DNA of 64,000 nucleotides, taken from NCBI RefSeq assembly GCF_900182905.1, contig NZ_FXUF01000019.1, forward strand, positions 1-64,000, written 5' to 3'. Position numbers and translations under genes: made by a program. Source of the DNA: Anoxynatronum buryatiense. GTDB taxonomy: Bacteria; Bacillota; Clostridia; Peptostreptococcales; Tindalliaceae. The notes beneath the pieces are model-generated. The model was not told where the DNA came from, did no database searches, and saw only the letters and a program-made list of their open reading frames with translations. Below, one piece after another: positions 451 through 5,243 of the stretch; positions within the stretch are counted from its first letter, which is position 1, and each line of letters starts with the position of its first letter.

Positions 451-546
451 GGCAGAGTAGACATTATGCGTTAAGTGTTGGGAGATGGGAAGTTGCTCTC
501 AAACGAAGAATGACATGATTCGCGGTATAATGTTGCATCCGCTGCC
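451..546 (+). promoter_or_regulatory. Tetrahydrofolate (THF) riboswitch
   Basis: The segment carries the conserved blocks of the THF riboswitch in order: GAGTAGA (455-461), GCGTTAAGTG (469-478), GATGGGA (484-490), ACGAAG (503-508), GCGGT (532-536) and TTGCATCCGCT (533-543 region). Its ends pair as GGCAG (451-455) with CTGCC (542-546). THF riboswitches are known to control folate synthesis and folate transport genes in Firmicutes, and the next gene is a FolT-type S component. The 3' strand of the closing stem overlaps an alternative hairpin (CCACAT 545-550 with ATGTGG 587-592), which suggests the ligand decides between two folds. Confidence 0.92.
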
Positions 547-4920: not shown

Positions 4921-4964
4921 ACAAAAAAAAGGAACAGGATTCATTGTTGGTACAACAAACCCTG
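4921..4964 (-). terminator. Intrinsic terminator of the structured RNA upstream of glgP
   Basis: On the minus strand CAGGGTTTGTTG (4964-4953) pairs over its full 12 bp, counting G-T wobbles, with CAATGAATCCTG (4946-4935) around a TACCAA loop. It is followed by TTCCTTTTTTTT. It begins 2 nt after the 3' strand of the long-range stem of the RNA upstream. Confidence 0.85.
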
Positions 4965-5243
4965 TCAACTGCAGAGACCTCTTCTATTGCCTTTGTATTC
5001 AGTTGTGTCCAGGTTTGTATCCAGGATATCACATACCTCCTGACTTTTCAGTTAGGATCAAATAACCGATGCTGCTTTGGTGTTGCTCGGATCTTGCTTT
5101 GATGGTGCTTAAAACCAGATATGCGTTTTCGTCATTTTAAGGAAGTGACGAACTTCATGTGTCTTATCTGCGAACGCCAATTCGCATCTTCAGACGTCTC
5201 TGCAGTTAAGGTATTGGCCTCAAGGCTTCGGCCACCTTTCCTT
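4921..5243 (-). ncRNA. Structured RNA of unknown family (small RNA or attenuating leader of glgP)
   Basis: Between the GGDEF gene and glgP lies a ~320-nt transcript unit with promoter and terminator and no plausible reading frame. Seen in the minus-strand RNA: a 5' hairpin (5238-5208, AAGGT/ACCTT around GGCC/GGCC); then AACTGCAGAGAC (5207-5196), which is perfectly complementary to GTCTCTGCAGTT (4978-4967), 217 nt away; directly abutting it a hairpin 5195-5161 (GTCT/AGAC plus TGCGAA/TTCGCA with an asymmetric internal loop); a hairpin 5152-5128 (TTCGTCA/TGACGAA); and weaker stems at 5093-5056 and 5056-5036. The 12-bp helix thus closes a multi-branched domain 2 nt before the terminator hairpin. 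I do not recognise hallmarks of 6S, RNase P, SRP, tmRNA, T-box, lysine, c-di-GMP or c-di-AMP RNAs. It may be a stand-alone small RNA or an attenuator of glgP-malQ. Confidence 0.7.

Follow-up and report, generated by a model that had tools for sequence, protein, structure and literature searches.

An RNA of about 320 nt encoded on the minus strand of the analysed stretch of DNA (the window, 64,000 nt of contig NZ_FXUF01000019.1 from Anoxynatronum buryatiense) belongs to a family of structured RNAs that is apparently undescribed and apparently specific to the order Peptostreptococcales. The locus lies between two unrelated genes and spans positions 5279-4923 from promoter to T-run. The transcript is placed at 5243-4923, with a 5' end estimated to a few bases and the 3' end inside the T-run, and has homologues in all seven genomes of the window's GTDB family. 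Sequence comparison leads us to favour, tentatively and at somewhat below even probability, a stress-regulated dual-function RNA in which translation of a mini-ORF, limited by a non-AUG start, would open the closing helix.

Folding of the minus strand beats 100 of 100 shuffles (z -4.75). An equally good fold is obtained for the opposite strand (z -4.6), which is expected for helix-rich DNA, and the strand was therefore assigned from promoter, terminator, ORF and homologues. The earlier note had described a 12-bp long-range complementarity, local hairpins of which one abuts the long helix without a linker, and a strong intrinsic terminator; all of these were recovered. The closing helix P3 is in fact 13 pairs long (AACTGCAGAGAC/GTCTCTGCAGTT, 5208-5196 with 4978-4966; its strands are also written UAACUGCAGAGAC/GUCUCUGCAGUUG), and its 3' strand doubles as the final codons of the mini-ORF. 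All seven sequences of the window's family have P3 paired (100% of cells) with covariation, and its counterparts covary over 46 relatives. Hairpins were found at 5238-5208 (P2, the 5' hairpin, with both-side changes in 5 of 11 pairs among the seven sequences) and at 5186-5169 (P4, UGCGAAUUGGCGUUCGCA, the equivalent of which is paired in 97.5% of cells in the 46 relatives). The terminator consists of a hairpin at 4965-4934 and a T-run that extends to 4923. No linker separates the closing helix from this terminator or from the 5' hairpin.

Further pairings are supported to differing degrees. The 5' strand of P5 (CAUAUCU, 5123-5117) has the partner AGGUAUG, covers the Shine-Dalgarno sequence and the AUG behind it, and shows one-side changes only. 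A further pairing is possible between UCCU (4933-4930) and the AGGA at the 5' end (5242-5239). The P2 loop (GCCUU, 5226-5222) forms a candidate pseudoknot with AAGGC (4993-4989) that is limited to the window's family, where GCCUGG or ACCUGG in the loop faces CCAGGC or CCAGGU; it covaries, with both-side changes in 2 of 6 pairs and 85.7% pairing in the seven sequences, and is more weakly supported. The most conserved single-strand motif is ACUGAAUA (5003-4996).

BLAST detected one clear copy per genome in the window's family (7/7 genomes, two genera), and in the alignment of these seven sequences the promoter, both conserved blocks and the terminator all align. For the P1-P6 structure, 96.4% of cells are paired and 13 pairs show double changes. 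The covariation value is 0.283, compared to 0.171 for shuffles and at most 0.084 for slid controls. In an alignment of 46 sequences, 38 of 39 core pairs show changes on both sides, 92.9% of cells are paired (33-47% in slid controls) and 544 cells covary (171 in shuffles, 59-95 in slid controls), figures that lean towards the structure because this alignment was fitted to it. Two MAFFT alignments with structures drawn from the sequences (A4 and A8) agree with this result. MAFFT misaligned the 5' end of the two most distant members, for which reason the model-based alignment was used. The support that had been sought for the structure, namely homologues in related Clostridia with covariation in the helix and hairpins, is thus present and extends well past the nearest strain.

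A covariance model found distant copies sharing AGGAGG and, further downstream, ACUGAAUA, and a pattern scan of named genomes yielded copies in Fusibacter, Acidaminobacter, Peptoclostridium, Tindallia and other Clostridia. With the models R2 and R3, copies were found in 45 of 393 genomes of the order Peptostreptococcales (25 of 158 genera), and none outside this order among the class and phylum samples. R3, which was built without the window's family, recovers the RNA of the window with E=2.5e-6, together with most of its sisters. The whole order, including Fusibacter, Acidaminobacter, Peptoclostridium and Tindallia, thereby gains a structured RNA family that is well supported. Searches of phage and plasmid collections gave no match.

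Several candidates were rejected during these searches. A BLAST match in genome G017 lies inside a coding gene and is due to chance, the true copy of that genome being located elsewhere. Many of the 42 pattern matches are unrelated coding DNA of Bacteroidota, Proteobacteria and others. The matches L036, L037, L038, L039, L041, L112 and L113/L138 are weak, partial or short; the weak matches were left out of the evidence on frame and start codon, and L138 remains one row of the 46-sequence alignment. L136 (genome G070) is a probable but divergent, short copy.

The gene context of the RNA changes between relatives, while its own promoter and terminator are kept. In the window's genus (g1), the RNA is located upstream of glgP and in the same orientation, and in the g1 relative examined uppP takes the place of the GGDEF gene upstream of the RNA. 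In the sister genus (g2) it is located between pyrD and a permease gene. Most relatives carry a divergent PilZ or HAD-hydrolase gene on one side and a convergent NUDIX-like gene on the other, these names being taken from sequence motifs rather than a family search. Given these divergent and convergent flanking genes in most relatives, the RNA is an independent unit. The earlier note had left the choice between a stand-alone small RNA and a leader of glgP-malQ, in which the closing helix sets up the terminator. A cis-acting leader or attenuator would be in line with the position upstream of glgP in g1 and with a stop codon that abuts the terminator, as in attenuators. The downstream genes are, however, unrelated or convergent in other genera, no conserved co-directional downstream gene was found among the relatives compared, and the context differs between g1 and g2, which makes this explanation highly improbable. 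Covariation, conserved promoter and terminator and changing neighbours instead indicate that, judged from sequence, this is a stand-alone structured RNA.

The promoter TTGATT-18-TATTAT proposed in the earlier note was confirmed at 5279-5250 on the minus strand and is conserved in 7/7 family genomes. The same site also reads TGATT (5278-5274)-N15-TGGTA (5258-5254), a sigma-B-type promoter overlapping the sigma-A-like match. In Clostridioides difficile, the SigB consensus is WGWTT-N13-17-(G/T)GGTWA (PMC7494833); the window copy ends in TGGTAT and is one base off the full consensus. WGWTT-N13-17-(G/T)GGTW is present in 37 of 46 copies, with spacers of N14-16 in these copies and 0.033 matches expected per copy by chance, and the Acidaminobacter-like copies L128 and L133 are without a promoter of this type. 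A SigB/F/G-type sigma gene is present near gyrA in the genomes, adjacent to an RsbW-like gene that scores below equivalog cut-offs. No SigB/F/G-type sigma gene above cut-off was found in G007 and G090, although the RNA of G007 keeps the sigma-B-type promoter. Transcription of the RNA is probably driven by SigB, the general-stress sigma factor, and the promoter pattern points to general stress as the place to look for its role.

The statement of the earlier note that there is no credible reading frame did not hold. Behind a Shine-Dalgarno sequence (AGGAGG, 5041-5036) that is conserved across the family, a mini-ORF of 20 codons (ILDTNLDTTEYKGNRRGLCS, 5027-4965) makes up the 3' third of the RNA; read from an AUC placed 8 nt behind AGGAGG, it stops at UGA and is likewise conserved across the family. 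In relatives, AUA, AUC or AUU (AUH) at 7 or 8 nt after GGAGG is followed by a frame, 20-23 codons in length, whose stop codon lies at the foot of the terminator stem. All members tested carry it except two doubtful ones (L130 and L138), in which no matching frame was found. Of 44 members, 43 have frame 0 open over 19 codons or more; the counts for the other two frames are 6 and 4. Counted by genus, it is open in 22 of 23 as scored and in 23 of 23 when g1 and g3 are read from the AUC at +8 (20 and 21 codons, respectively). In one member (L137, genome G045) the stop is lost, with CGA in place of UGA, and the frame runs through the terminator.

The frame could be a by-product of constraint on the RNA, for example for anti-Shine-Dalgarno or ribosome binding, in which case the molecule would be a purely non-coding structured sRNA. 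Covariation is indeed far stronger than peptide conservation, the Shine-Dalgarno sequence is mostly paired (mean pairing 0.74, compared to 0.39 in the ORF, 44 members), and 9 of 23 genera have no in-frame AUG. Such an origin is nevertheless hard to reconcile with a frame that is open in all 23 genera with the corrected starts of two, when shuffled interiors keep it open in a mean of 5.4 and a maximum of 12. In addition, all three stop codons (UGA, UAA and UAG) are used at the same place, and the length of the mini-ORF varies only in multiples of three. We therefore regard a purely non-coding sRNA as quite unlikely.

Whether the peptide itself is the product that matters is a separate question. 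The RNA might be a short mRNA for a peptide of about 20-22 amino acids, its structure serving only to control translation and stability. Frame and length are conserved over 23 genera, the peptides follow the pattern I-x7-[KT][TI]EY, and changes by codon position amount to 48/63/97 (third position 97 of 208) over 29 non-independent pairs. Conservation of the peptide is weak, and this third-position excess offers only modest evidence of selection on it. Against such an mRNA, the C-terminal residues reflect the closing helix and not a constraint on the protein, and the large conserved 5' structure would be unneeded. L136 has a frame of 20 codons with an AUC start but keeps ACUGAAUA out of frame, so this motif is constrained as RNA and part of the conservation acts at that level. 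A short mRNA is accordingly a possible but doubtful explanation, with a probability below that of the dual-function RNA.

Nearly all members have an AUG 1 nt behind AGGAGG; in the window genome (5034-5032) this AUG is not in the frame of the mini-ORF. In the f2 lineage (14 of 23 genera) it is in frame, two codons upstream of the AUH, so that initiation at this AUG may be an alternative to AUH there. In the nine genera without an in-frame AUG, including that of the window, AUA, AUC or AUU invariably occupies the position at normal spacing, 7-8 nt after GGAGG, and AUG never does. Between GGAGG and the start codon, the most frequent distance at the loci of the window and of 13 relatives is 7-8 nt (28 of 67), and only 3 have 1 nt. 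Single members point in the same direction: L137 has AUC in place of the AUG, L136 has no AUG, and in L142 an in-frame UGA follows the AUG just before AUU, so only this AUU (or CUU) can start the frame. If the frame is translated, AUH would thus be the sole option at 7-8 nt spacing in several lineages.

The infC gene of this genome (L143, G000:C1) apparently uses an AUU start preceded by GGGAGG; no AUG, GUG or UUG lies in frame nearby in that region. In Staphylococcus aureus, conserved AUA and AUU starts with a strong Shine-Dalgarno sequence work at about 10-30% of AUG efficiency (PMC13009471). In the light of both, AUH initiation of the mini-ORF is plausible.

Structure, conservation, promoter pattern, conserved frame and the lack of an in-frame AUG in several lineages are supported directly, and from these we infer SigB control, AUH initiation and a switch between two states. 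The 5' hairpin, closing helix, inner hairpin and terminator would form a compact fold that partly hides the strong Shine-Dalgarno sequence, so that the RNA would normally be closed and poorly translated. The ORF ends with the 3' strand of the closing helix, its stop codon is in contact with the terminator stem, and the Shine-Dalgarno sequence is mostly paired. A translating ribosome must open this fold, and it is for this reason that the stress-induced dual-function RNA is favoured. An initiating ribosome would unzip the terminator hairpin at its base as well as the closing helix. Structure and translation of the RNA would then be mutually exclusive and could set the activity or lifetime of the RNA, with inefficient AUH initiation determining how often the fold opens. 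A more speculative and rather unlikely extension is that the whole family keeps the AUH start on a mini-ORF within the closing helix, so that initiation stringency (IF3, ribosome state) together with SigB induction switches the RNA between folded and translated states; the RNA would then act as a sensor of translation initiation. Should the AUH start prove real, this would be the first RNA family, as far as known, with a non-canonical start as a conserved part of its design, and the use of IF3-limited initiation would become directly testable.

No Rfam 15 family reached its gathering score for the RNA of the window and eight relatives, and the view of the earlier note that no known family is involved therefore holds against an all-model covariance check of that release. 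The literature, within incomplete search coverage, gave no description of the RNA family. Other structured RNAs were annotated in the window: a THF riboswitch (RF01831, 84.9 bits) at 451-546 (plus strand) upstream of a membrane-transport-like ORF, and an L10 leader (44084-43958) and an S10-Clostridia leader (30184-30110), both on the minus strand with Rfam matches above gathering.

Compared to known systems, the RNA resembles raiA/ModT (RF03072, PMC11706538) as a large structured RNA of Bacillota whose molecular role is unknown. It differs in that it does not match the raiA/ModT model and that a separate raiA RNA is encoded elsewhere in the same genome, on C15 (L084, G000:C15:65058-65260, 176.9 bits). 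6S RNA (RF00013) is likewise a stand-alone structured RNA of similar scale, but the sole match in the genome, the true 6S RNA, lies elsewhere (C3:327644-327815) and none was found at the window RNA. With tmRNA it shares a short internal reading frame within a structured RNA, but differs in having no tRNA-like domain: ARAGORN found none in L001, L086, L108, L134 and L125, and there was no Rfam match.

SgrS/SgrT, SR1/SR1P and RNAIII/hld are dual-function sRNAs. VcdRP is a further example (PMC8672173). All of these resemble the window RNA in combining a regulated, stand-alone RNA with a mini-ORF; no sequence relation was found, and in the window RNA the mini-ORF lies inside the closing helix and has an apparent AUA, AUC or AUU start. 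Conserved AUH start codons are known from infC, ccpN and cvfC1 (PMC13009471), which share with the window RNA an AUA or AUU behind a strong Shine-Dalgarno sequence in Bacillota, with translation kept low. Those genes are ordinary mRNAs, whereas here the apparent start belongs to a frame of about 20 codons within a structured stand-alone RNA.
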